Source: Methylocapsa sp. D3K7 (GTDB taxonomy: Bacteria > Pseudomonadota > Alphaproteobacteria > Rhizobiales > Beijerinckiaceae). From it: a stretch of 64,000 nt of DNA. The position numbers were made by a program, and so were the translations under genes. The notes beneath the pieces were generated by a model. It was not told the DNA's origin and did not search any database. It saw only the letters and a program-made list of their open reading frames with translations. Every line of letters starts with the position of its first letter. The stretch's first letter is position 1. Of the stretch, positions 36,289 to 49,844 are shown in pieces. The stretch lies in the NCBI RefSeq assembly GCF_029855125.1, contig NZ_CP123229.1, positions 2,834,501-2,898,500 on the forward strand, in the 5' to 3' direction.

Positions 36289-36540
36289 TTAATCGCCGGA
36301 GCGTGGGTTTTGCGGGTCGCCGCTCGGGTACCCTTTTTCATCGGATCCGCCCCAGAATGTTGAGGGATCTTCCATCCGGTAGATGGAACGTCCTTCGATC
36401 ATTCCATCGTCGGGATAGCCGTATTCCGCGCCGGGGAATACATAGGGTGCAGCTGGCACTATTACCCTCGGGGAGGCCACCGCTGACGTACCGCAAGCGA
36501 GGGCTGCTCCTAAAGTAATCAGTGCAATAATTTTCAACAT
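36289..36540 (-). CDS. Small exported protein, DUF-type, unknown function
   Basis: The 83-residue product has a signal peptide (MLKIIALITLGAALACGTSAVA) and an acidic, Gly/Pro/Tyr-rich mature part (PYVFPGAEYGYPDDGMIEGRSIYRMEDP). A GGAG site lies 7 bases upstream of ATG 36540; the frame is open to 36579 but has no ribosome site there. I recognise no family. Confidence 0.65.
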   Translation of the reverse strand: MLKIIALITLGAALACGTSAVASPRVIVPAAPYVFPGAEYGYPDDGMIEGRSIYRMEDPSTFWGGSDEKGYPSGDPQNPRSGD

Positions 36541-37090
36541 TGCCACTCTCCTTGTTTTTGGCGGGTTGGGTCCCGGCACATGATTTTTGAAGCTTTTATG
36601 ACAATGATATGAAACTCGCTAGAGACGTAAAAAATTCCAGAAGTAGTTTTCACGTTTCTGTTATCTCTTTAGTTAAGCGATAGAGATATTTTACTCTATA
36701 TACAATATAGAAAGTATTATTCTTGATGCTGTTCTTGCTGCCGAAGCGGCCGCTCGCGATTGGGGTGATGTCATTGGCGATGTTGCTACGCAGTCGGGGA
36801 AAACGGGGTGAGCGTTTGCCTGGGATAGTGCCTTGGCTCAATCGATCCGCATCAGGCCAACCCCGGCTTCGTTTCGACAAGTCCTTTGGCATGACATGGA
36901 AATACTATCCAAAGACCCTGGTGAATCAGGCTGATCTTGCATCACCAGTCTGCCTTGGAATTCGCCATCTAATCGCGATAGGCCCTCGCCAATCCCTCTT
37001 GATTTCAAACGGATCGGCCCTCTTGCCTAAGAACCGGGCCTATGCGACATACGCCCGCGCTCCAAAATTTTAAAATTTGCATGCGTGAAA
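36541..37090. other. 550-base spacer before tRNA-Thr
   Basis: This is an AT-rich stretch at 36600-36730 followed by GC-richer DNA. Open frames exist on both strands (36723-37073 plus, 36650-36892 minus), but neither has a ribosome site or protein-like composition. I support no gene here. It may contain the promoter of tRNA-Thr. Confidence 0.45.
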
Positions 37091-37165
<75 letters not shown>

Positions 37166-37363
37166 TTCAAACCTTCGGAAATACCGGTCTTTTCGGCGGC
37201 ACATAAGACGTTTGGGCGCAGGTAAGCGCCGTTTTAGTCTGGGGAAAATCCGGGGACAGGTTTTCTAGTGTCTCTACCTTCTGTGCCGCGAGACAGAAAC
37301 GTCATTCTTGGTGATCTGCCGCACCACAATTGCACGGCATTCATTGAGGCGCCCGGTCTTTCG

Positions 37364-38326
37364 CTAGAGGTTGAGGATTCGCCTTGGATCGAGGCGTCCA
37401 CGAAAAAAATCGGAAAGGCCGAGGAGGTTGCCGAACGCCCGGCCGCGGCGATCAATCCAAGGCTCCGGGTTAAACGATTTTATGATGTTTGCCAGAACGT
37501 TACGAATCATCTGCGATGCCACGCCGCCCGCATGTACGGTGCCCTTGCGCCAAAGGTAATAGGGATTGGCAATCTGTGAATAGCCATACCGGAGCCCGGA
37601 GGTGCGGCCGTTCTTGACGCCAAGATGAACACCGGTCATTCGCGGGTTCTTGACGATCTGGCCGTAGGCCGCAAGCTGGCGGGAAAAATCGACGTCTTCC
37701 GCCCAGGCGTAGAAGGGCAGATTTTCGTCGAATCGCAAGCCATGCGCGAGGACCGGCGCCAAGCGCACGGCCATGTTGCAGCCATAGGCATTATATTGGT
37801 CGATCAACGGCATCGCGGCCTCTGACGGCACGAAGGATGCAAGGACGGCCCTCGCTTCGCCAGCAGTGAGGCCTGGCCCCTTGATGTCATCGGCGAGTGT
37901 TCTGCCGGTCGCCACCAGAACCGCGGGATTTGCCACCAAGCAGTCTTCGAGTTCGGCCAGATAGGTTGGCTCGGGGAAGAAATCGTCATCAAAAAACATG
38001 ACAACGTCAAATTGCTGTGCGGCGCAAAGAATCGCATTGCGCTGCATGGGCAAGCCCCGCGAACCTTGGACGATCTGCACAGGGAAGGGCAGTTTCGCCG
38101 CCTGGGACGCATCAAAGTCGTCCGACGCCGCAGGACAAATCAATACTGCCTCAGGAAACCGAGTTTGACGCGCGAGTACAGCCAAAGTGTCCGCGAGAAT
38201 CAAGCGGCGGCCAGCAGTCGGGATCCCTACCGCGATTCTCAGTCCTGGGCGTATCAACTCAGTCGGGCCAACTTCATGAGCCGACATCCGCTGGATGTTA
38301 CGATGCCAGCGCGATGAATGGATCAT
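37364..38326 (-). CDS. Family 2 glycosyltransferase (island)
   Basis: The protein has a GT-A fold: RIAVGIPTAGRRLILADTLAVLARQ at the nucleotide site, the acidic DxD region FFDDDFFPEP and a later AWAEDVDFSRQL that fits the catalytic base area. The C terminus (LLGLSDFFRGRLDPRRIL) is amphipathic. Several starts are possible; ATG 38326 has a GAGG site and gives about 320 residues. It is the island gene nearest tRNA-Thr. It could modify surface sugars; acceptor and donor are unknown. Confidence 0.8.
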   Translation of the reverse strand: MIHSSRWHRNIQRMSAHEVGPTELIRPGLRIAVGIPTAGRRLILADTLAVLARQTRFPEAVLICPAASDDFDASQAAKLPFPVQIVQGSRGLPMQRNAILCAAQQFDVVMFFDDDFFPEPTYLAELEDCLVANPAVLVATGRTLADDIKGPGLTAGEARAVLASFVPSEAAMPLIDQYNAYGCNMAVRLAPVLAHGLRFDENLPFYAWAEDVDFSRQLAAYGQIVKNPRMTGVHLGVKNGRTSGLRYGYSQIANPYYLWRKGTVHAGGVASQMIRNVLANIIKSFNPEPWIDRRGRAFGNLLGLSDFFRGRLDPRRILNL

Positions 38327-38508
38327 TCCTTTGCCCTCTCTCGCAATCCTTCGAGAAGGTGGTTCGGAAAAGTGCCTCATCGATGCTCGGGCGCCTGTTT
38401 TCTGCATTTTCTTTGCTTAGAAACCGTTTTGACCGCTCATGAACGCAGCCGCCGGTAAGATTGTCACGGAACCGCTTCCTCCGCATCCCCTGTTAGGGGG
38501 ACACCGCT

Positions 38509-38652
38509 TCAGACCCTGATCGCCGCGATGGCGCAGGCGCCGATGGTGAGGGCGCCCGCGATCGTTGGCTCGTCGTCAAGGGATTCGATCCACCACGCCA
38601 CCAAAAGCACCACCAGCGCGATGATGGCGAGCCAAAGCGGCGAATAGGTCAT
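38509..38652 (-). CDS. Tiny two-helix membrane protein of the lysis cassette
   Basis: The 47-residue product (MTYSPLWLAIIALVVLLVAWWIESLDDEPTIAGALTIG...) has two hydrophobic segments separated by an acidic turn. Its ATG overlaps the stop of the holin-like gene (ATGA), so it is translated with it. It may be a second holin component, but this is inferred only from position. Confidence 0.6.
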   Translation of the reverse strand: MTYSPLWLAIIALVVLLVAWWIESLDDEPTIAGALTIGACAIAAIRV

Positions 38653-39059
38653 CGGCGGGTCAGCCAGGCCGAAGTCGCCGACAGCACCGGCGCCACCGGC
38701 GAGACGACGATGAAGCTGCTGAGGATGACCCACGCATAGCCATCCCAGGGGGGAGGCAGCTTGGCGATCGCCCAGCCCATATGGAACACGCTGTCAAGCA
38801 CGATCGCGCCGAAATAAAAGACGCAAAGCTCGCCTGCCAGACAGGCGATGATCTTCGGCCCGATCCAGGCGTTATTCGCCGCCTTGATCTGCTCGGCCTG
38901 GATTTGCGCGGCGAGTGTGGCTTTGCCGAGCTCGACGTCCGCGCCCATGGCACTTTGCGCGCCCGACAGATTGATGTCCTGTTTTTTGCCGAGGTAGGTG
39001 AAGAGCGCTGGAAACAGATTCCCGAGCGCTGGGAGGATCAAGCCAAGGATAGCGATCAT
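38649..39059 (-). CDS. Phage holin-like membrane protein
   Basis: The 136-residue protein has an N-terminal hydrophobic segment (IAILGLILPALGNLFPALFTYLG). A helical region ELGKATLAAQIQAEQIKAANNAW follows, and then two more membrane segments (ACLAGELCVFYFGAIVL and YAWVILSSFIVVSPVAPVL). This resembles three-helix holins of phages and gene-transfer agents. It lies three bases after another membrane gene and shortly after an endolysin. Confidence 0.65.
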   Translation of the reverse strand: MIAILGLILPALGNLFPALFTYLGKKQDINLSGAQSAMGADVELGKATLAAQIQAEQIKAANNAWIGPKIIACLAGELCVFYFGAIVLDSVFHMGWAIAKLPPPWDGYAWVILSSFIVVSPVAPVLSATSAWLTRR

Positions 39060-39062
39060 GGC

Positions 39063-39452
39063 TTAGACTTTCGGAGCGACGGGCGGCGCAGGAACCGCGA
39101 CAGGCGGCAAAGCGGCCGCGGCGTTGAGGCCCGAGAAATGCGCCCATAGCGTCGCGAACCATAGCCCGGCCGACACCATCGCCGCATGCTCATGGCTCAT
39201 AAATTGATCCCAGCCGAAGCCGACGAGTTTATCGCCTTCCGTTGTCACAAAGGAAAACAAGGTGCTCAGCGTCGCTAGAAATGGTGTCTTAAGGCCGAGC
39301 ATCATCAGCCAGATTTTTTGCAAGACCGAAAGCTCGCCGGATGCCAGCTTTTGATCGATGCCTATCGTGGCCCGGAATTTGGCGAGCTGCGGAACGACGA
39401 AGAAGAACATGACGAAGAGCAGCGCGATGATGATCAAAGGGACGGTATACAT
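39063..39452 (-). CDS. Phage-cassette membrane protein
   Basis: The 129-residue protein begins with a strong transmembrane helix (YTVPLIIIALLFVMFFFVVPQL), then a soluble stretch and a second, weaker hydrophobic part (AAMVSAGLWFATLWAHFSGL). The end is proline-rich. An AGGAG site sits 5 bases before its ATG. It lies between the endolysin and the holin-like gene and probably belongs to the lysis module; I do not recognise a family. Confidence 0.65.
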   Translation of the reverse strand: MYTVPLIIIALLFVMFFFVVPQLAKFRATIGIDQKLASGELSVLQKIWLMMLGLKTPFLATLSTLFSFVTTEGDKLVGFGWDQFMSHEHAAMVSAGLWFATLWAHFSGLNAAAALPPVAVPAPPVAPKV

Positions 39453-39460
39453 GGGGGCTC

Positions 39461-40321
39461 CTATTTTGACGGGGACATTTCGGCATTGGCGATGGCGGCC
39501 TTTGCCGCATCGAGCTCCGCCTGTTCGGCGGAAATTGCTTTGGCCTTGAGATCGGCCTGGACACCGGCTGCGGTCTTCGCGGCGAGCGCCGCCGCTTGCG
39601 TGGCTTTCATGCGCGCGACGGCATCCGACAGCGCGTCGACTCGTGCGCCCTGCCGCCAAGTGTTGAATGCCGTGATTGCCGACGCCAGAACCACGAAGCC
39701 GATGATGGCCGCTAACGCCCATGCGCCGCCGATGAGATAATGATGCGCGCTACCGGCGGCGACTGCCCCGGCGGTAATGGTGCGCGCCGGCGCTTTCGAG
39801 CCTTTCTTGGCAATGGCAGCCTGCAGGGCGGGTTCGAGCGGTGCGCCGGCCATGACCAGCGCCGTCGCCTCGCATTGCGCCACACGGCGTCCCCAGCCCG
39901 CGCTAAATCGCGACCAAGAGCCTAGCGAGTGCATGAAGGACAAGCGATCCGCGCAGATCTTGTGAATCAGTGGCGCCGGATCCTTGGCTCCCCCAGCGAT
40001 CGCCTGCAGGCGCTCCCAATTGGCTTTGGCAGGGCCTGAGTTAATCGCATAATCGAAGATGCAAAGATCGACGCCCGTCGCGAGGTCATCGCCACGGATC
40101 GGCTGCCAATAGCCAATGGCATAAATCTCCGCGATCTCCGCGTCGCCGATCAAAAACACGTCCTGGCGCGGCAAGCCTTTCTTGTCGCGATAGGCGTCAT
40201 ACGTCGTGTGGGTGATGCCGCCGCGCCCGGTCCGGCCTCCTCGATCGCCAGGCGTGTCCGTATTGCCGCCCTCCTGCTTGCGTACGAACGCAACGCAGGC
40301 CGGATAATTATCGTGAGCCAT
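39461..40321 (-). CDS. Phage endolysin, GH108-type N-acetylmuramidase
   Basis: The 286-residue protein starts with a glycosyl-hydrolase-108 domain (residues 1-90): FVRKQEGGNTDTPGDRGGRTGRGGIT contains the expected catalytic Glu in EGG (Glu17). The PG_binding_3 part follows (DLCIFDYAINSGPAKANWERLQ). A transmembrane helix near residue 200 (GGAWALAAIIGFVVLASAITAF) and a coiled, Ala-rich tail complete it. The membrane helix suggests a membrane-tethered lysin. ATG 40321 has a GGAG site, while the in-frame TTG at 40333 does not. Confidence 0.82.
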   Translation of the reverse strand: MAHDNYPACVAFVRKQEGGNTDTPGDRGGRTGRGGITHTTYDAYRDKKGLPRQDVFLIGDAEIAEIYAIGYWQPIRGDDLATGVDLCIFDYAINSGPAKANWERLQAIAGGAKDPAPLIHKICADRLSFMHSLGSWSRFSAGWGRRVAQCEATALVMAGAPLEPALQAAIAKKGSKAPARTITAGAVAAGSAHHYLIGGAWALAAIIGFVVLASAITAFNTWRQGARVDALSDAVARMKATQAAALAAKTAAGVQADLKAKAISAEQAELDAAKAAIANAEMSPSK

Positions 40322-40357
40322 GGGGGTCTCCAAAGAAAGATTGGCCAGCGAACGGTC

Positions 40358-41452
40358 TTAGACGAGGCTCATCCGCCCTTGATGCGCAGACCCAAAGGTC
40401 GCTGCGAACCGCCGCGTCCACACCTGTTCGGAAGCCCGGCAATAGGCGCTCAAATCCCGCCGCTGCTGGTGGATGCGGACATGCGAGCCTTGAGCGCTCT
40501 CATTCCAAATCATCATCATCCGGCCGACAATCGAGTGTAGCGACGTCGGGTCCGCATGCGCATAAGCGCCGATCCACGGAATGTCTGGCGAGACCACCAA
40601 TGGCACTGACCCTGCCATGGCATCGGCGGAGACAATATTGAACGTCTCACTGAACGAAACCTGCATGGCGATATTCATGCTGCCGATCAGCTGCAGAAAA
40701 TCCTTGTGCGAAAGCCAATCGTGCTCGACCAGCTCGCTGCGGATTGTCTGGGCAAAAAGCTCGCGGATGTTTTTCAAAACCGGCGAAGCATTGCCCTCGA
40801 CGCGCGAACTGTTGATGTGAAAGCGCACCGGCATATCCACGGCATCACTCAAGGCGATCGCCGCGATCGCCTGAATAAGTTGATTTTTTAACGGCCGAAT
40901 CGCGCCGAAGCAGGCGATATCGATCGCACGAGCATTTTCCCTCGACGGGCGGCCTATATGCTCAGGGCTTGGCGACGGGTAGAAGTTCGGGCCGAAGGTC
41001 ACCAGCTGCTCCGGCAGTCCAGCAGCAACGGCAATCGCACGCAAATCTTCTTGCGCGCGAAGGCTGTTGCTCATGACCTCGACGCCGCGTTTTAGATATT
41101 CGATCGTCCAGCCGATCGCGATACCTTCGTTTGATAGAAAGGGAATTTCGGAGTGGTTCCGGACGATCCACCGGACGGTCCGGTGCAGCGGCTTGAGCAC
41201 GTCGAATTTTTCCGGCACGACCCAAAACGCTTCGATGAAGACATGCGTCGGCTTGAAGGAATTTACTTCACGGTCAATGGAATTGTTATCTGGAACAATG
41301 ACCATCTTGGCCTTGACGCCGTGCCGGGTAAGCATATCGACAAGAAACGTGACCGAGTTTGAGAGCCCCGACGAAAGATGGCCGCCGCTCGTGCCGTATC
41401 CTCCATAACTGGTTTCGTTTTGCTTGAGGATAAAAAGCAGTCGCGGGATCAT
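40358..41452 (-). CDS. GT4-type glycosyltransferase (phage-associated)
   Basis: The 364-residue protein has a GT-B fold. The N terminus MIPRLLFILKQNETSYGGYG suits a sugar-binding Rossmann half. The C-terminal part shows the GT4 nucleotide-sugar motif SFSETFNIVSADAMAGSVPLVVSPDIPWIG, with Glu and Asp at the usual E-x7-D spacing. Phages of this group often carry such genes beside tail genes, possibly for host-surface or virion modification. Sugar and acceptor are unknown. Confidence 0.75.
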   Translation of the reverse strand: MIPRLLFILKQNETSYGGYGTSGGHLSSGLSNSVTFLVDMLTRHGVKAKMVIVPDNNSIDREVNSFKPTHVFIEAFWVVPEKFDVLKPLHRTVRWIVRNHSEIPFLSNEGIAIGWTIEYLKRGVEVMSNSLRAQEDLRAIAVAAGLPEQLVTFGPNFYPSPSPEHIGRPSRENARAIDIACFGAIRPLKNQLIQAIAAIALSDAVDMPVRFHINSSRVEGNASPVLKNIRELFAQTIRSELVEHDWLSHKDFLQLIGSMNIAMQVSFSETFNIVSADAMAGSVPLVVSPDIPWIGAYAHADPTSLHSIVGRMMMIWNESAQGSHVRIHQQRRDLSAYCRASEQVWTRRFAATFGSAHQGRMSLV

Positions 41453-41499
41453 AAGAGCTCCTTCAATTCAGTCTTTGGTTAGTTTCGATGCCGCGAATT

Positions 41500-42345
41500 T
41501 CAGAACGATTCGACGTCTTCGATAGTTGGGTACACAATGATCCCACTTTCAAGATCGAGCCGTCCCTGTGGATCGGTCAAAAGCCGCATGAGAGTTGTAG
41601 GATTGGCGAATTCACATGGTGTCGCGGCGCCGATCGATGCGCGCAGCCAGGGATTATCGACATGATAAGTCGCGTAATAGTCGAGGGCCTGCGCGAGACC
41701 TGGAATCAGCCGCGCGTCCCATAGATAGACGCCAGAAACCCGTCACCGAGATAGGTTGAGGTTGTGTTGCTGATTCAAGATGGCATTGCCCATTCGGTGT
41801 TATGCCACTCGTGTAGGGCTGGCCTCTGATCTCACGACGATACCAGCCATTGCCGATCGTCTTCATGTTTGCAAAAGCGCCAGAGGCAGTTTCCGATGGA
41901 AGACCCGGATTTTATCCAAGCCGCATTTGAAAAATCAAAAGGAGCAGTCAAAAGAGTCTACCGCGTCGCCACACTGCCAGAGAATGCCAATTGCATGTTC
42001 TCGTACAAGAGGCCCGCGATCGAGAAACGGTGCCCCGCGAGATCAGATCGCTTCGCTGCACGGTGGGCGGTAGCGACGTCGCATGGAGCACCGCCGCATC
42101 TGCCGTCACCAAGATCAAACTTGCGCCGCAAAAGGCCGACGTCCGCAATCGAAGATCGGCATGTTGAAACTGCCAAGGCGCCCTTGCAGCGCCGCGATGA
42201 AGCCGCGCCATTTGACCAGCGCCTTCGCATCCATCGCAGGCAGCGTGAGTTTTCTTCCCAGCGTGCCGCTGGCGACGCGACAATCTACTCGCTGCCGGCG
42301 AGATGTGATCGTCGGCGTCAATACGGGGCGTGCAGGATGCACGCT
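41500..42345 (-). pseudogene. Degenerate phage tail/structural gene
   Basis: On the minus strand, several reading frames carry successive pieces of one or two phage structural proteins, each broken by frameshifts. The 5' piece has LTLPAMDAKALVKWRGFIAALQGRLGSF (42120-42260). Next comes AGHRFSIAGLLYENMQL, then TYLGDG, then GVYLWDARLIPGLAQALDYYATY and finally TLMRLLTDPQGRLDLESGIIVYP ending at TGA 41500. At about 41740 the GGT GAC GGG TTT context would rejoin TYLGDG to VSGVYLWD if one G were restored. The gene appears inactive. Confidence 0.65.
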
Positions 42346-42351
42346 GGTGGC

Positions 42352-45300
42352 TTACCCCACGAGCACTTCCGCCGCCGAGGATCTTGACTCACGTTCCGAA
42401 CGCCCGCGCGGCGGGCGGTGGATGGGATCGGCGCCGATCGTGCCGACGAGCGAACGGCGGTACTCAGGTGCGCTCACGCGCTCCAGCTCGGCCTGAGCGT
42501 GATCCAGCCGCCCGGCGATGCCGAGTCGTTCCGCCTCCTCACGGTGACCGGCCCGCGCCAGAAACTCGGTCAAGCTCCGGACGTGACGCTCCCAGAGAGC
42601 GACATCCCGCTTCTGCTTGATCGCAAGCCGCTCAAGATACCAATCGCTGGCGAGTAGCGATTCACGGGTGAAGAGGGCTCGAATTTCGGGATGGGCGGCG
42701 TCTCTCTTCTCGTAGTGGCCATACGCCATGATGTGAAGCAGCGCTTTGAGCGGGGGACAAGCGTCGTCGATTGTGCCATCCGCGAAGTACGCCTCAGCCA
42801 TGCGCTGCTGCGCCTCCACGATGTTATTGACCCCATCAGCAAAGACTGCAGGATCCTGAATCTCGGGCTTGAGAATCTCCTCGGTGAAGACCGCGGTGGG
42901 ATTGTCGAACACCCGCCCGAAGTAGGTGCGCACGAACTTGGCGGTGATGCGATAGCCGAGCCGGCTGGCGAGGACCGTCCGTCCTGCGAACTCGTAGTCT
43001 TCGAGCTTTTCCAGGTGACCGGCATCGATCAGTCGCTTCGGGTCGCGCTCGTGGGGGAACAGCCGGCACCAGATCTCGGGAATCAGCAGACTGATGTCGT
43101 GATCCACTCGGTATCGCGGTCCGATGAAACCGGCGGCGGAGCTGAAGCCCGCATACCCCGTGAGCAACATGGAAACCAGAGCGTTGTTGAGATCGGCCGT
43201 GGCCGCGAGCGCATTGAACGGCCCTTTCGTGAGGGCGCCCTCCGAGCCCGCGCCCGTGGTGCTTGGCGAGGTTCCCGTCAGTGAGCACACATAGTCCATG
43301 AAGAGCTCGGGTAACTCCTGGTAGTGGATGGGTCCGTACACGCAGAGCGGGCGAACACCGTCGTCGGGCCGGTTGTTGCGGCGACCTGAGAGCACGCTGA
43401 TCACCGGGAACAGCACAGGCGCGTGGAGCGGCAGCCGCCGGTTGAGCCTCGCGCCCATCTCCGCGACGTACCGGTCGCGGGGTCGAGCGAGGTCCGGCCG
43501 CACCTGAAGGTAGCGCGGGTTCTTGGTACGCTTGCCGCCGACGAGTCGCGGCTCGGCTGAGGAGATCGAGTAGCCGCTGTCGGTGCGCGCCGCGTTGGCG
43601 GCCACGTGCTCCCGCATCGGTTGAGTGAAAGCGTCGTGGACCGCCACGTCCTCGACGATACGCTTCGCGTCCTCCCGGGTGAGAGGCTGAAAATTTGAGC
43701 AAAAGAGCCCGAGGCCTGCCATGTCTTCCTCGGTCTGCCGGTCGAAGCCGGGATGGATCGCGTCGTCGGGGCGCTGAAAGAGCCTGAACTCGCAGTTATG
43801 CGCCAGCTTCAAACTTGGGTGAAAGTTGTACCAGCCCGGGAGCCCAGCGAGCCGACGTGCCGGGACCACCACCGAGGCAGTGATGTCGTCCTCCATCTGG
43901 ACCTTGTCGGCCGCGACGAAGTCCTGCCTCAGCTTGTAGGTCCGCCACGCACCGTTCTCCTCGCGTCCGATCCGGAGATAGCTGGCGACCAGCCTCCGCC
44001 CTTCGTACTTCAGCTCGTGTCCAGGGGCGCCGTTGATGATGTCGACGCTGAAGTGGCGACGCCAATCGTCGCCCCATTCCGGACGGTGAAAGCGCTTGAT
44101 CACGAACACCAGTGCGCGGACCTGGTTCGGGATACTCTCGAGCCAGGCATTGTATTCCGGTGTGAATTCGGCCGGATTGGGTGTGAGCAGCTTGATCACC
44201 GAGCCGAGTGAGCGATCGGTGGAGAGGATTGGGCGGTCGTCGTAGCTCCGATCGAAAATGGCCTGTACCGTGGCCATGTCATGCTCGAAGCTCTGTACGT
44301 GGAACGACCCGGGCAGCACGGCGTCGACCAAGCTCTTACTGATCTCCGACTTTCCCCCGCCCGACACCGTGCTGGGCTTGTGGCAGAAGGCGCCTTCCGG
44401 AACCGACCCGACCAGACGCCAGCTCGGCGCCGCCTGGTGCTTGGTCATCCGGATCTTGTAGCCGCTGGGATGAATGTAGATTCGGCCGGGCAACAGCTTG
44501 AGATGTTGTTGCTGCCCTTTGCTCACCCATGTGATGTCCTGCCGGGGGACATCGATCTCCATGTCTTCCGGCATGTAATGGATTTCGGGGTACAGCGCGT
44601 CGGTCGCGTACCCAGTGTCGTGGAACTTCGCGCGCTCGCCCAGCAGTGCACGAACTTCGGTGAATTTGTGGCCGGCGCTCACCACCCGGACGTGATCGGG
44701 GACGAAGCGGTCGCCAAGATTGAAGGTCGCGAAGGCCAGCGCACCGCCCGCGTGCTCCTCCTCTGCCATGCCGAACAGGTTCGCACTGTAGCCGATCTGA
44801 GTCTTGACCTCCTTCTTGCAATACCCGAAGTAGTTATCGGCAAGAATCGTCACCATGACGCCTTGGATGCTGCGTGACGTGACCTTGAATGGGCTGCCGT
44901 TGTTGTACAGTTCGCTCTCCGCTTCCCAACACATCCCCGCCGCGTACTCAGCCTCGCTGGCGAGGCTCACATGGGGCAGGCCGAGGTCTTTCTTGCGCAG
45001 GCTGGTGAGATGGGGCGCGAGGATCACGCAGCCGCTGTGCCCGGTCCAACCGTCGACGTCGAGCGCGGCGTCGTGTGCGGGGAGGTAGGGGTCGCCCGCG
45101 TTGCCGAAGATGCTCTCGATAAAGTCCAGATTGGAAACGAGCCCACCGGGCACGAAGAATCGCACTTCCATGCGCTTTTCCGGCGTGAATTTCGGGACTG
45201 CGGGACACACGACCGGCCGCAGCAGGAGCGATACCATGGTTTCAACGGGCTTCGGCCAGTTCGCCGTGAACGGCAGGCGCTTGAGCTCGGCCGGGGGCCG

Positions 45301-45834
45301 CAACGCCTCCTGCAGCAGCCGCACGAATGCCGTTAGCGGCACACGTATCTTGTCTGCGGGAATGGGGAGTCCGCCATCGGCCACGTGAAATACGCCCTTG
45401 GTAGTTCGGCGATCGTTGACCGGGTTGTGGAGCACACCGTTGTCGAGGCGATAACTCGACACCAGCTCATTGTGCCACGAGTCGGCGTCCATAGGCAGCG
45501 AAAGCTCACGCGCGAACCCGTAGTGATCTAGAATGAATGTTTCTCCGGGAAGGCGCACGGGCTCAGCAAAGCCGGCAGACGTCAGCAGCCCGTCGATATA
45601 GTTTTGGATTCTCCGGTCAGCAGGGCACAGATGCTCGGAGAGTAGCCGGGCCTGCTCGCGATAGCGGGCAAAAAGATCGCCTGCCAGATGGAACAAATCC
45701 TGGTCGCCGGTGTCAAGCGGCACCTGGACTCCCATGGCCGCGAGCTTGAGCAGTATGGAGCGGACTGCGGTGCGCCGCTCCGGCAGCCACACCGCGCCAT
45801 CCGACGTCAGCCCCACCGTGCGCTCGAGTTCCAT
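42352..45834 (-). CDS. PPi-type phosphoenolpyruvate carboxykinase-like protein
   Basis: This 1160-residue protein matches the size (about 1,100-1,200 residues) and motif set I associate with pyrophosphate-dependent PEP carboxykinases. Those enzymes interconvert oxaloacetate and PEP using PPi/Pi instead of ATP or GTP. The P-loop-like kinase motif is CHKPSTVSGGGKSEISKSL (GGGKSE at 492-497), where GTP-PEPCK has ACGKT. Another landmark is YFGYCKKEVKTQIGYSAN (335-352) with EEEHAGGA. The end past residue 1110 looks unstructured. It ends inside the island beside the tail pseudogene. An unrelated large metabolic enzyme is unlikely given the motifs, but I have not aligned it. Confidence 0.7.
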   Translation of the reverse strand: MELERTVGLTSDGAVWLPERRTAVRSILLKLAAMGVQVPLDTGDQDLFHLAGDLFARYREQARLLSEHLCPADRRIQNYIDGLLTSAGFAEPVRLPGETFILDHYGFARELSLPMDADSWHNELVSSYRLDNGVLHNPVNDRRTTKGVFHVADGGLPIPADKIRVPLTAFVRLLQEALRPPAELKRLPFTANWPKPVETMVSLLLRPVVCPAVPKFTPEKRMEVRFFVPGGLVSNLDFIESIFGNAGDPYLPAHDAALDVDGWTGHSGCVILAPHLTSLRKKDLGLPHVSLASEAEYAAGMCWEAESELYNNGSPFKVTSRSIQGVMVTILADNYFGYCKKEVKTQIGYSANLFGMAEEEHAGGALAFATFNLGDRFVPDHVRVVSAGHKFTEVRALLGERAKFHDTGYATDALYPEIHYMPEDMEIDVPRQDITWVSKGQQQHLKLLPGRIYIHPSGYKIRMTKHQAAPSWRLVGSVPEGAFCHKPSTVSGGGKSEISKSLVDAVLPGSFHVQSFEHDMATVQAIFDRSYDDRPILSTDRSLGSVIKLLTPNPAEFTPEYNAWLESIPNQVRALVFVIKRFHRPEWGDDWRRHFSVDIINGAPGHELKYEGRRLVASYLRIGREENGAWRTYKLRQDFVAADKVQMEDDITASVVVPARRLAGLPGWYNFHPSLKLAHNCEFRLFQRPDDAIHPGFDRQTEEDMAGLGLFCSNFQPLTREDAKRIVEDVAVHDAFTQPMREHVAANAARTDSGYSISSAEPRLVGGKRTKNPRYLQVRPDLARPRDRYVAEMGARLNRRLPLHAPVLFPVISVLSGRRNNRPDDGVRPLCVYGPIHYQELPELFMDYVCSLTGTSPSTTGAGSEGALTKGPFNALAATADLNNALVSMLLTGYAGFSSAAGFIGPRYRVDHDISLLIPEIWCRLFPHERDPKRLIDAGHLEKLEDYEFAGRTVLASRLGYRITAKFVRTYFGRVFDNPTAVFTEEILKPEIQDPAVFADGVNNIVEAQQRMAEAYFADGTIDDACPPLKALLHIMAYGHYEKRDAAHPEIRALFTRESLLASDWYLERLAIKQKRDVALWERHVRSLTEFLARAGHREEAERLGIAGRLDHAQAELERVSAPEYRRSLVGTIGADPIHRPPRGRSERESRSSAAEVLVG

Positions 45835-46222
45835 CCCTAGCCTCCCTGTGAATGATCCGAGAGTTTACCCCAACGTCTCTCCTGGAAGCCTTTCCGTCAA
45901 CCGCCTTGTCCAACGTTGAGCGGTCGATCAGGCAGACATCCGTCATTCGCCAGGAAATTCCAACGGCTGGCTGCGTGGGAACGAGCACCAGTCGGAGCAA
46001 TAAGCTTGAGGAAATTGTGCGTTGCGGGACTTCGACGCTTGGTTCGTTGCCCGTCAAACTGCTGCATGCTCGCTAGGGCTGATTGCAGAAAACCTATAAA
46101 ATCAATATTAATATTGCTGATGGCAAGCGTTCTCTCGCAGCACCAGCAAGGATTGGCTTTTGCTTTGGCTTGATTTGCAAGTGCGATGTGGGCGAACCAA
46201 GCCCCGCGAGGAAATCGGCAAT
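45835..46222. other. Right island junction spacer
   Basis: This 388-base stretch upstream of the PPi-PEPCK gene contains no supported gene. It holds the promoter of that gene and the right attachment repeat (46131-46145). An AT-rich patch (ATCAATATTAATATTG, 46101-46116) precedes the repeat. Confidence 0.5.
46131..46145 (+). repeat. Right attachment repeat (attR), 15 bp
   Basis: TCTCTCGCAGCACCA copies the last 15 bases of tRNA-Thr (37151-37165) in the same orientation, without any tRNA body around it. It marks the probable right end of the island. Confidence 0.7.
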
Positions 46223-46527
46223 ATGACGGAACCATCCCCCAAGCCAAAAAGCACGCGGGTGTCAAAAGTGATCATGGCGCCGCGCCAGGCCGTCAATCAA
46301 GCCTGCCTTGACCCGGACGCGGTGGCGGCATGGCGAGCACCAGTTGGTATGAAGGGTCAGATGCACGTCTTCGACGCGAGATGACAATCACCACGAGCTT
46401 TGCCGTCACCGACGAAGGAACTGAAATCACGCTCCTCTGCGAGGACATACCGGCAGGCATTAAGCCTGAAGACAATGAAACGGGCTCCAGATCATCTTTG
46501 GAGAATCTCGCCGTCTTCCTTGAATAG
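46223..46527 (+). pseudogene. Internally deleted SRPBCC (AHSA1) gene
   Basis: The first frame from ATG 46223 encodes the usual N-terminal third (STRVSKVIMAPRQAVNQACLDPDAVAAWRAPVGMKG...VFDAR) and stops at 46384. A second frame immediately continues with MTITTSFAVTDEGTEITLLCEDIPAGIKPEDNETGSRSSLENLAVFLE, the usual C-terminal third. The middle of the protein (the part after FDAREGG in relatives) is missing and the frames differ, so a deletion has fused the two ends out of frame. It lies 77 bases outside attR. Confidence 0.7.
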
Positions 46528-46670
46528 TTCGGCGTGGCCGCGTGCAATGCCCGCGCACCTTCCTGGCGCTTTGCTTGACGGGTTTTGGATATGATTTCCT
46601 GACAGTGTAGGATACCCGTCAGAGAGCCCAGTATGTTTCGCTGATCCTTTGAACTTTTGCCGGAAGAGTC

Positions 46671-49600
46671 ATGCAACGCGCGAACGTCTTTACGATCGCC
46701 TCCGGCGCGCCATTTCTGCAAACCTTCGTCAATTCACTTTTTGACGGCCGCGTTGTCGAGGGATTTTCAAAAAACCTCGATCCTCTCGAAATGGCGGACG
46801 CCACGATCCACGTGCCGACGCGCCGCGCCGCCCGCGCACTCGCGGTTGAACTCGCTCGCGCGACCGGCTGCCATTCGCTGCTGTTGCCGCGCATCCTGCC
46901 GCTTGGCGCGCTCGACGAGTCCGAACCGGGCCTGTCGATCGACGATACGGGATTTGGGTCCTCTCTTGAGCCGGGGCTTCCCGAGGCGGCGGGCGAAATC
47001 GAACGGCGGATGCGGCTTGCGGGGCTTATCCTCGCATGGGCACAGGCCATGCGCCACGCGATCGTTTCGGTCGGCGCACAAGGCAAATATGAGTATGACA
47101 CGCGGGAGTCTTTTCTTGTCGCGGCGACCCCCGCCGATGCCTGGCATTTGGCTGGCGAACTCGCCAGCCTCATCGACGAATTGATCATCGAGGACGTGGC
47201 CTGGATAAAGCTCGATCCGCTGGTCTTGCCGGAGTTCGATTCCTATTGGCACATCACTCTCGATTTCCTCAATATCGCGATCATGGAATGGCCGAAGATA
47301 CTCGCCGATCGCGGACTTGTGGATAAGGCCAAGCGGCAGGTCGGGTTCATCGAGGCGCAATGCCGCCGCTTGCAAACAGGCGCCGTGACCGGGCCCGTGA
47401 TCGCGATCGGCTCAACCGGATCGCAGAGCACGACGGCGCGGCTGCTCGCGGCCATCGCGCGTGCGCCAAGGGGCGCTGTCGTTCTACGTGGACTTGATCA
47501 GGATCTCGACGCCGAGGCATGGGCGTTGATCCCGGACGGGTCCAGAGAGGATGCAGAGGCATCCTACACGCATCCGCAAGCCGCGCTACGCCGTCTCCTT
47601 CGCATTCTCCAGGTGCCGCGTGATGATGTTGTGAACCTTGGCGAGGCCACGCCAAATCTTGTCATGCGCGGCAAATTCTTATCGGAGGCTTTGCGGCCGG
47701 CGGAGGCGACAGGCGAGTGGATCACCTATCGGGGAACCGCCGGGGCCAACGAACTTGCGGCGGCGCTGCAAGACGTCAGTTTGATCGAGGCCCGCGATGA
47801 ACGCGAGGAGGCCCTCGCCCTCGCTATTGCCATGCGGGAAGTCCTGGAAACACCGGGCAGCACCGCGGCGCTCGTCACGCCGGATCGCACGCTCGCGCGG
47901 CGGGTGGGCGCGGAATTGCTGCGCTGGGATGTTGTGGCAAATGATTCTGCTGGTGAATCCCTCGGCGCGAGCCCGATCGGTGTCCTCGCGCGGCTCGCTA
48001 GCGCCTGCGCCGCCAGTGAAATGGCGGCGCCGGACCTTGCCGCATTGTTCGCGCATCCACTGTTGCGGCTCGGGCTTTCCCGCGCGGATGTTGAAAGGCG
48101 AGCGGCACTTCTTGAAACCGGTCTATTGCGTTCGCTTCATGCCGCGGGCGGTCTTGCCGGGAGCATTGCGGGCGAACCGGCTGCCTTGATCGCACGCGCA
48201 CGGCAAGACGCGAGCAGCCATTTCGCGCATCCCTCTAAGCAGCAAATTTCCGAAAATGAATGGGAAGATCTGCAAGATTTTTTGGTGCGGCTAGGCATTC
48301 AATTCGCGCCGCTTCTGAATTTGCGCGGGCATGCCGCATTGGACCAGTGGGTGACGGCGCATCGTGCAACGATCGAGGCCATCGCCAGCGGCGAGGACGA
48401 TAGCGCCGGCGAGGCGCGCGAGGCCTTGGACATGCTCTTCGATGAACTGGCGCAAAATGCGTCCGATCGCATGATTTTTGACATTGAATCCTACGATCTC
48501 TTTTTCGCATCGGTTGCGGGCGAAGTCATCCTGCGAGACTCTGGACAAACGCATCCACGCCTACAAATCCTCGGCCTCCTCGAAGCACGCCTCATCCAAG
48601 CCGATGTCCTTTTGCTGGGCGGCCTCGACGAAACGGTGTGGCCGCCGCAAGCGCGCACCGATGCTTTTCTCAATCGCCCGATGCGCGCCGCTCTAGGGCT
48701 CACGCCGCCTGAGCGCAAACTCGGCCAAACAGCGCATGATTTCGTGCAAGCCATGGGCAACCGGCGGGTGATTTTAAGCCGCGCCCGCAAACGCGATGGC
48801 GCCCCTACCGTGGCATCCAGGTTTCTGCAGCGTATGGCGGCGCTTGGCGGCTCTGCGTGGGAGATGTGCCGCAAACGCGGAGAGGTTTATCTGCGCCTTG
48901 CGGAAGCCATCGATCGGCCAAATTTTGATCCGCAACCAAGCGGCAGGCCGCTGCCGAGACCACCGCTCGCGCTGCGTCCGAAGCGCCTCAGCGTCACCCA
49001 AATCGAGACATTGCGGCGCGACCCCTACGCCATTTATGCCGAAAAAATTCTGCGTCTGAAGCAGCTCGATCCTCTCGGAGGCGCGTCGGGCGTGGCCGAA
49101 GTTGGCAGCGCGGTCCATTCTACGCTGGAGCGATTTGTCAAAGGTTACCCCTGTGGGCCTCTGCCGTCAGGTGCCCGCGAAATGCTCGCCACCATTCTGC
49201 GCGAAGCGCTCGCGCCGCAATTGCAAGACGCGGATTTCGTGGCGCTCCAATTGCCGCGGCTCGAAAAGATGATCGATTTCTATCTCGGGTTCGAAGCAAG
49301 ACGCCGCGATCGGATTAAGACGATTAAAATCGAGGCCGAGGGCGAACTCGATATTGGTCTTGCCGATGGTTCAAAGTTTCTGCTGGCGGCGCGGGCGGAC
49401 CGGATCGAACTGAACATTGATGGAACGGGGACCCTCGTCGATTATAAAACCGGCGCGCCGCCCGGAAATGGTGAAGTTTTTGTGGGCTTTGCGCCGCAGA
49501 TGACCTTGGAAGCGGCGATGTGGCTTCGCGGAGCCTTCGATCCCGGCCAAAAGAGCGAGACACTCGAGGCACTTTATTTAAAACTCGGCGGCGCTCTGGG

Positions 49601-49844
49601 GGGCCAGGAAAGGGCCGTTTCGTTTGCCAATGTCAAAGCCAATGTAATGCAAAAGAGCTTTATGGACGTCTCGGACGATCATTTTCGCGGTCTCGTTGAT
49701 CTTCTAAATCAGTTCCGCAATCCCGCGACACCCTATCCGCCGCGTCCGTTCCCGAAATATGCAAAACGTTATAACGCCTACGACCATCTTGCTCGCGTGA
49801 AGGAATGGTCGCGGGGCGATGAGGCCGAGGAGAATGGTGCGTAA
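46671..49844 (+). CDS. addB: Double-strand break repair nuclease AddB (alphaproteobacterial type)
   Basis: AddB is the second subunit of the AddAB helicase-nuclease that processes double-strand ends for RecA. The 1057-residue protein has an inactive helicase-like N terminus (VFTIASGAPFLQTFVNSL; the Walker A is not canonical), a long helical core and a C-terminal RecB-type nuclease: KRLSVTQIETLRRDPYAIYAEKIL, then ARADRIELNIDGTGTLVDYKTGAPP with the catalytic D-x-K. It overlaps addA by one base. Confidence 0.93.
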   Translation: MQRANVFTIASGAPFLQTFVNSLFDGRVVEGFSKNLDPLEMADATIHVPTRRAARALAVELARATGCHSLLLPRILPLGALDESEPGLSIDDTGFGSSLEPGLPEAAGEIERRMRLAGLILAWAQAMRHAIVSVGAQGKYEYDTRESFLVAATPADAWHLAGELASLIDELIIEDVAWIKLDPLVLPEFDSYWHITLDFLNIAIMEWPKILADRGLVDKAKRQVGFIEAQCRRLQTGAVTGPVIAIGSTGSQSTTARLLAAIARAPRGAVVLRGLDQDLDAEAWALIPDGSREDAEASYTHPQAALRRLLRILQVPRDDVVNLGEATPNLVMRGKFLSEALRPAEATGEWITYRGTAGANELAAALQDVSLIEARDEREEALALAIAMREVLETPGSTAALVTPDRTLARRVGAELLRWDVVANDSAGESLGASPIGVLARLASACAASEMAAPDLAALFAHPLLRLGLSRADVERRAALLETGLLRSLHAAGGLAGSIAGEPAALIARARQDASSHFAHPSKQQISENEWEDLQDFLVRLGIQFAPLLNLRGHAALDQWVTAHRATIEAIASGEDDSAGEAREALDMLFDELAQNASDRMIFDIESYDLFFASVAGEVILRDSGQTHPRLQILGLLEARLIQADVLLLGGLDETVWPPQARTDAFLNRPMRAALGLTPPERKLGQTAHDFVQAMGNRRVILSRARKRDGAPTVASRFLQRMAALGGSAWEMCRKRGEVYLRLAEAIDRPNFDPQPSGRPLPRPPLALRPKRLSVTQIETLRRDPYAIYAEKILRLKQLDPLGGASGVAEVGSAVHSTLERFVKGYPCGPLPSGAREMLATILREALAPQLQDADFVALQLPRLEKMIDFYLGFEARRRDRIKTIKIEAEGELDIGLADGSKFLLAARADRIELNIDGTGTLVDYKTGAPPGNGEVFVGFAPQMTLEAAMWLRGAFDPGQKSETLEALYLKLGGALGGQERAVSFANVKANVMQKSFMDVSDDHFRGLVDLLNQFRNPATPYPPRPFPKYAKRYNAYDHLARVKEWSRGDEAEENGA

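Follow-up and report, generated by a model that had tools for sequence, protein, structure and literature searches.

Pyrophosphate (PPi)-dependent phosphoenolpyruvate (PEP) carboxykinase (PPi-PEPCK) is scattered over limited but diverse lineages, most holders also having an ATP- or GTP-dependent PEPCK, and InterPro describes no family for it, according to excerpts of PMC8100219. The enzyme has already been described in a methanotroph, the gammaproteobacterium Methylotuvimicrobium alcaliphilum 20Z (excerpts of PMC6860931 and PMC5802761), and a methanotroph PPi-PEPCK is not new as such. We report a gene of this class in the alphaproteobacterium Methylocapsa sp. D3K7 (Beijerinckiaceae), within a stretch of 64,000 nucleotides (the window; contig NZ_CP123229.1, positions 2,834,501 to 2,898,500). 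Our analysis makes it very probable that this is a working PPi-PEPCK from outside the genus, which lies with a lysis cassette in a segment of about 9 kb, bordered by tRNA-Thr and next to addB. The enzyme family is known, the host class is a rare one and the carrier segment is unusual; the finding is not a new kind of thing. The main features are the following.

42352-45834, minus strand: PPi-PEPCK, 1160 amino acids (open reading frame (ORF), phmmer against PDB, residue conservation, fold)
37091-37165, plus strand: tRNA-Thr (GGT), the left border; the attachment-like core that is repeated consists of its final 15 bases (37151-37165)
37166-46130, no strand: putative acquired segment, about 9 kb, between the borders; may have arrived as one unit
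46131-46145, plus strand: right border (attR-like), between PPi-PEPCK and addB; repeats the 3' end of tRNA-Thr exactly over 15 bp, in direct orientation
46671-49844, plus strand: addB (named by reading; Pfam PDDEXK_1), the core gene to the right of the segment; in 15/15 genomes of the genus

The ORF had been read as a PPi-PEPCK of 1160 residues in an earlier note made from the letters alone, and this identity stands. It starts with ATG, preceded by the purine-rich stretch agggaggctaggg, contains no internal stops and gives a single match in the host genome. No family was assigned by Pfam, NCBIfam, PHROGs or PADLOC. In phmmer searches against PDB, two solved enzymes matched with E=0, namely 6k31 ("AiPEPCK", 1185.4 bits, residues 22-1137) and 8e1u ("PPi-dependent PEPCK" of Propionibacterium freudenreichii, 1170.1 bits, residues 18-1137); 6k31 we take to be from Actinomyces israelii. 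The predicted model has the same fold as both along the entire chain (template modelling score TMq 0.90-0.91, identity 48-52%). The characterized enzymes are thus alike to ours in full-length homology and fold, while organism and genomic setting differ. These matches and the structural comparison rule out an unrelated family. The ATP- and GTP-dependent PEPCKs are about half as long and 8-14% identical to PPi-PEPCK; their donor is a nucleotide (PMC8100219, in excerpt), and the host carries a separate ATP-PEPCK.

All 194 residues that are invariant in 56 relatives are kept in the window protein (194/194); the relatives were drawn from 69 loci, 13 of which were unused (10 not entered, 3 dropped for in-frame stops). 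Both motifs to which the earlier note had tied the identification proved conserved. GGGKSE (residues 492-497) is invariant at all six positions. In KKEVKTQ (residues 340-346), K340, K341 and K344 are invariant in the 56 relatives, E342 is likewise invariant in a 37-row alignment, where T345 and Q346 reach at least 90% conservation, and only V343 is not among the listed conserved positions. Judged by sequence and predicted fold, the ORF is a true PPi-PEPCK. A point on the other side is the low model confidence (predicted local distance difference test, pLDDT, below 50) of residues 862-868 and of residues 490-494, which lie at the GGGKSE motif. The last 20 residues are also below 50.

The segment resembles genomic islands and integrative elements inserted at tRNA genes, in that the tRNA 3' end is repeated at the far border and the content is missing upstream of addB in other members of the genus. 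The right repeat has the same orientation as the tRNA, includes the CCA and lies on the start side of the PPi-PEPCK gene. To the left are nadA, a flavin adenine dinucleotide-binding protein that reads as nadB, and nadC (by reading), followed by tRNA-Thr-GGT; to the right are addB and addA (domain matches; names by reading). None of the segment genes was found upstream of addB in 13/14 congeners (G012 left out), the DNA available there being about 3.1 kb in G006 and only about 1.0 kb in G005. The 15-mer has three copies in the host genome and one in each of 7/14 congeners, and the reversed pattern occurs in 0/15 genomes. Past the 15 bp and inexact pairs of 16-22 nt, no longer attachment repeats or terminal inverted repeats were found. 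The congener with the most similar addB (G006, 78%) has a 49-bp tRNA-Thr 3' fragment 291 bp before addB. Ahead of this scar is an ORF carrying a Phage_integrase domain, and before that lies an ORF without family match that reads like the front part of an integrase. The fragment and the integrase-domain ORF suggest past use of the site before addB for tRNA-Thr integration in this lineage. A glycosyltransferase-domain ORF (861-1367) was also noted in the same stretch (L141 861-2767).

Several observations weigh against arrival at this tRNA by a simple insertion. No integrase was found in 36289-46721 among the ORFs scanned, which did not include every small one; this sets the segment apart from known tRNA-inserted islands and leaves its mode of entry unproven. 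The third host copy of the 15-mer, at 1.903 Mb, is part of a tRNA-Thr fragment, so such fragments occur elsewhere too. The 525 bp between the right repeat and addB align with the 291 bp of G006 only over 46 bases at the addB start; no clean empty site is therefore seen. In seven other congeners tRNA-Thr lies 12-17 kb from addB in opposite reading direction, and in G010 about 0.5 Mb away, which indicates that the ancestral layout differs. On its sequence, the segment would work like a tRNA-inserted genomic island, and we do not class it as an intact element. It may have arrived as one integrative element between tRNA-Thr and its 3'-end copy. To our knowledge, small segments with a tRNA border seldom carry central-carbon enzymes.

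The gene is very sparsely distributed. It was present in 2 of 60 genomes including the host, the other being G035, from another genus; the counts are 0/14 for congeners, 1/21 for other family members and 0/24 for other order members. A family sample (n=397, host included) gave eight matches, one of them spurious (G167, E 9.1e-4, 32% over 108 residues with a stop) and set aside. The seven real ones are the host and six of the 11 genomes of genus g22, which is a Methylovirgula-like member of Beijerinckiaceae. In a class sample the host itself was the only carrier (1/385). In a quick tree the window sequence groups with two copies from Gemmatimonadales (Shimodaira-Hasegawa-like approximate likelihood ratio test, SH-aLRT, 86), inside a nine-row clade (support 100) of four Gemmatimonadota rows, four Beijerinckiaceae rows and the window, which in turn lies within a 17-row clade (100) that includes Myxococcota. 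The g22 and Gemmatimonadales copies are 79-84% identical to the window copy, and none of its neighbour genes recurs beside them.

Base composition was also compared. The GC content at third codon positions (GC3) of the gene is 0.788, above the 0.592-0.736 of 12 genes outside the segment. In four Gemmatimonadales contigs it is 0.90-0.93, and gene and flanks there have alike GC content (0.69-0.71 in three contigs; 0.686 and 0.664 in L007). In the Methylovirgula-like loci L004 and L011 the gene is GC-richer than its flanks, and in L005 it is not. Sparse presence, tree placement and GC pattern together favour an entry into Beijerinckiaceae from outside, with the caveat of possible binning errors; of the four Gemmatimonadales contigs used in the tree, two are shorter than 12 kb. 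A further point against is that raised GC3 is not specific to the enzyme, the segment gene at 38649-39059 having 0.796. The note's other expectations, rarity in Alphaproteobacteria and horizontal transfer, agree with these counts and with the placement among Gemmatimonadota. Overall the gene looks horizontally acquired, and its presence in one genome of the host genus and 6/11 g22 genomes suggests a mobile gene. The source may have been a relative of the Gemmatimonadota or Myxococcota copies, or the gene may have come via a Methylovirgula-like relative. In the Gemmatimonadales contig L002, an S15 peptidase and a DUF5916 protein adjoin PPi-PEPCK.

Besides PPi-PEPCK, the segment holds these genes, some with transmembrane (TM)-like stretches.

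37364-38407, minus strand: family-2 glycosyltransferase-like protein (matches below curated cut-offs)
38649-39059, minus strand: protein of 136 amino acids in phrog_12264 (function unknown); three TM-like stretches make it holin-like, by anatomy only
39063-39722, minus strand: ORF of 219 amino acids with one TM-like stretch and without family; overlaps the lysozyme gene and is possibly not a real gene
39461-40333, minus strand: GH108 lysozyme/endolysin-type muramidase, one TM-like stretch (Pfam E 8.4e-19; phrog_315 endolysin E 2.4e-27)
40358-41452, minus strand: protein of 364 amino acids without family; group-1 glycosyltransferase-like on reading (an impression, with no tool match)

By anatomy, the lysozyme and the three-TM protein form a putative phage-type lysis cassette. 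It is quite possible, at somewhat below an even chance, that this cassette and PPi-PEPCK arrived separately at a tRNA-Thr hot spot, the 15-bp repeat stemming from only one of the events. Composition varies within the segment (GC 0.56-0.64, GC3 0.64-0.80), and the tRNA is followed by a different repeat (37104-37311) with further copies at 1.90-1.93 Mb. In the loci compared, tblastn gave no match for seven other proteins of the segment and left flank, and in 18 related loci the neighbours of PPi-PEPCK include none of those that it has in the window. Within this set of 18, common neighbours are several between Polyangiaceae, one (45% identical) between the Gemmatimonadales loci L002 and L008, and a weaker one in L003, L010 and L016; in L003, L014 and L054 the gene picking did not capture PPi-PEPCK itself. 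Since neighbours are unshared across lineages, PPi-PEPCK seems to travel without fixed company. Against separate arrivals, a single pair of borders encloses all the segment genes.

The repeat after the tRNA has five same-strand recurrences within 24 kb (C1:1903217-1927487; L139, L176), about 0.95 Mb away and at 81-93% identity, two of which also hold a 49- or 62-bp tRNA piece. Its appearance is that of a dispersed repeat derived from a tRNA, or of old attachment sites in an array. Near this array, a large serine recombinase with Resolvase and Recombinase domains (L139 5037-7053) directly adjoins a tRNA-Gln.

The earlier note had placed the gene in a phage-like island, which holds in part. Lysozyme, three-TM protein and mobile-type borders agree with it; among the segment ORFs scanned there are lysis-type and unknown genes only, and no integrase, terminase, capsid or tail gene. 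We regard it as distinctly unlikely that PPi-PEPCK is phage cargo, i.e. an auxiliary metabolic gene whose prophage kept its lysis cassette nearby while its other genes decayed. The endolysin and the three-TM protein do share the segment with the enzyme, an ORF of phrog_12264 also occurs in congener G013 (L143 10920-11645) about 1 kb from tRNA-Thr, and the integrase-domain ORF of G006 adjoins its tRNA-Thr scar. The lysozyme matches 55 of 50,697 phage records, none covering more than 80%, the best being Sinorhizobium phage phiM5 (38.9%). However, PPi-PEPCK was found in none of these phage records (0/50,697); among plasmids there was one in 72,556 (Persicobacter, 632 kb, 48.6%). One IMG/VR contig (L177) does carry PPi-PEPCK beside tail genes, although this copy shares 95% identity with one from Thiobacillus (L030). 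In L177 (1-9254) the gene lies between tRNA-Ala/tRNA-Glu and tRNA-Arg, and the phage tail genes are past tRNA-Arg. In L030 (3210-9684) PPi-PEPCK is followed by another stretch, of 2.2 kb, at whose end there is a 48-bp copy of the 3' part of tRNA-Arg. The gene therefore reads as one of the host and the prophage as its neighbour, and L177 was rejected as a case of phage cargo. The two loci are a second PPi-PEPCK adjoining a tRNA integration site. For the segment as a whole, PADLOC gave zero matches for six of its proteins, which gives no sign of a defence island. Sigma-70-type promoters (2 in the region, shuffle mean 3.0) and terminators (11, against 9.8 in shuffles) were not above shuffles. A weak match to 1ln4 (E 0.21) was set aside.

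Vertical inheritance in the family with many losses is very improbable. It could draw on a constrained tree in which the window and the four Methylovirgula-like copies form one clade, with a likelihood higher by 11.76 and no rejection in the approximately unbiased test (p-AU 0.695). But no congener carries the gene and only one other genus of the family sample does, Gemmatimonadota copies fall inside the same clade, the neighbours differ and GC3 is raised. By the same comparison, two separate gains in the family, as the free quick tree had placed the window apart from the Methylovirgula-like clade, were not upheld.

In the host, the enzyme joins an already served metabolic node. PPi-PEPCK would catalyse PEP + CO2 + Pi <-> oxaloacetate + PPi. 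The host encodes two PEP carboxylases (PEPC; C1:77440 and C1:987049), an ATP-PEPCK (C1:2749391), a pyruvate phosphate dikinase (PPDK, C1:1039951) and an H+-pumping pyrophosphatase (H+-PPase, C1:4018571), so that PPi-PEPCK is not the sole anaplerotic or gluconeogenic route, and the PPi-driven route proposed in the earlier note needs this correction. With PEPC and ATP-PEPCK present, the enzyme is on paper redundant, and PPDK and H+-PPase occur widely among the relatives as well (over cut-off in 53/60 and 58/60 genomes); both facts weigh against the main reading. A catalytically dead or repurposed relative, at which such redundancy might hint, is the least credible account in view of the full-length, stop-free frame with 194/194 invariant residues. 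Gap-filling for a missing PEPC or PEPCK was rejected for the host, which has both. The joint presence of PPi-PEPCK and ATP-PEPCK fits what PMC8100219, in excerpt, states for most holders. In g22 a replacement of ATP-PEPCK looked possible because the most complete carrier, G035, is without it, unlike the host. The pattern is not clean: ATP-PEPCK is present in 3/11 genomes (G098, G244 and G170, the last also a PPi-PEPCK carrier), the non-carriers G128, G151 and G185 have no ATP-PEPCK match either, and several g22 genomes are incomplete.

D3K7, probably a methane eater, is able to grow on methane; its growth is slow on acetate and very poor on methanol (PMC10672854, in part). In serine-pathway methylotrophs, PEPC fixes CO2 onto PEP (PMC11237726, in part). 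The most likely role of PPi-PEPCK would be a reversible, PPi-coupled exchange of PEP and oxaloacetate beside PEPC. If it acted instead of PEPC, the phosphoryl energy of PEP would be kept as PPi, usable by H+-PPase or PPDK, to which its PPi may be linked; the alternative direction would be gluconeogenic, for instance on acetate. The excerpts of PMC6860931 and PMC5802761 treat the enzyme of M. alcaliphilum 20Z as an anaplerotic, PPi-linked step, and by this description it is of the same class. That organism has the ribulose monophosphate pathway with a partial serine cycle and one PEPCK is named, of the PPi type, whereas D3K7 also has ATP-PEPCK and two PEPCs. In a flux balance model of a methanotroph other than D3K7 (PMC5802761, in excerpt), PPi reactions raised the growth rate in silico only from 0.146 to 0.149 per h, and the rate was 0.145 per h with biosynthesis as the sole PPi source. 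It is a speculative idea, and in our view an improbable one, that a presumed serine-cycle methanotroph has had its PEP-to-oxaloacetate step rewired by a mobile, tRNA-borne PPi-PEPCK, saving as PPi what PEPC loses as Pi. If true, a bacterium that lives on traces of methane and acetate would possess a module for saving energy that can be transferred. Provided the gene is expressed, the genus would offer a natural experiment, with equal PEP/oxaloacetate enzymes and with or without the PPi-saving one, and this presence or absence allows a direct test of whether PPi-linked anaplerosis raises yield at low methane.

Our literature search found no paper joining PEPCK, Methylocapsa and pyrophosphate, and no title about this enzyme in Methylocapsa or Methylovirgula. 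In the available text of the D3K7 paper (PMC10672854) neither "carboxykinase" nor "pyrophosph" occurs. This text gives a genome size of 4.15 Mb in the abstract and of 4,607,683 bp, in one chromosome, in the results. It names metagenome bins as the closest relatives, and the congeners with the closest addB (G003, G005 and G006) are fragmented like bins. Partial PEPC matches (45-71 bits, mid-profile) were also seen in open frames of 821-1081 amino acids in family or order relatives (G022 C1:1230903, G036 C12:51631, G037 C35:627, G043 C142:5021 and G046 C76:20807), and are perhaps a divergent PEPC-like family.

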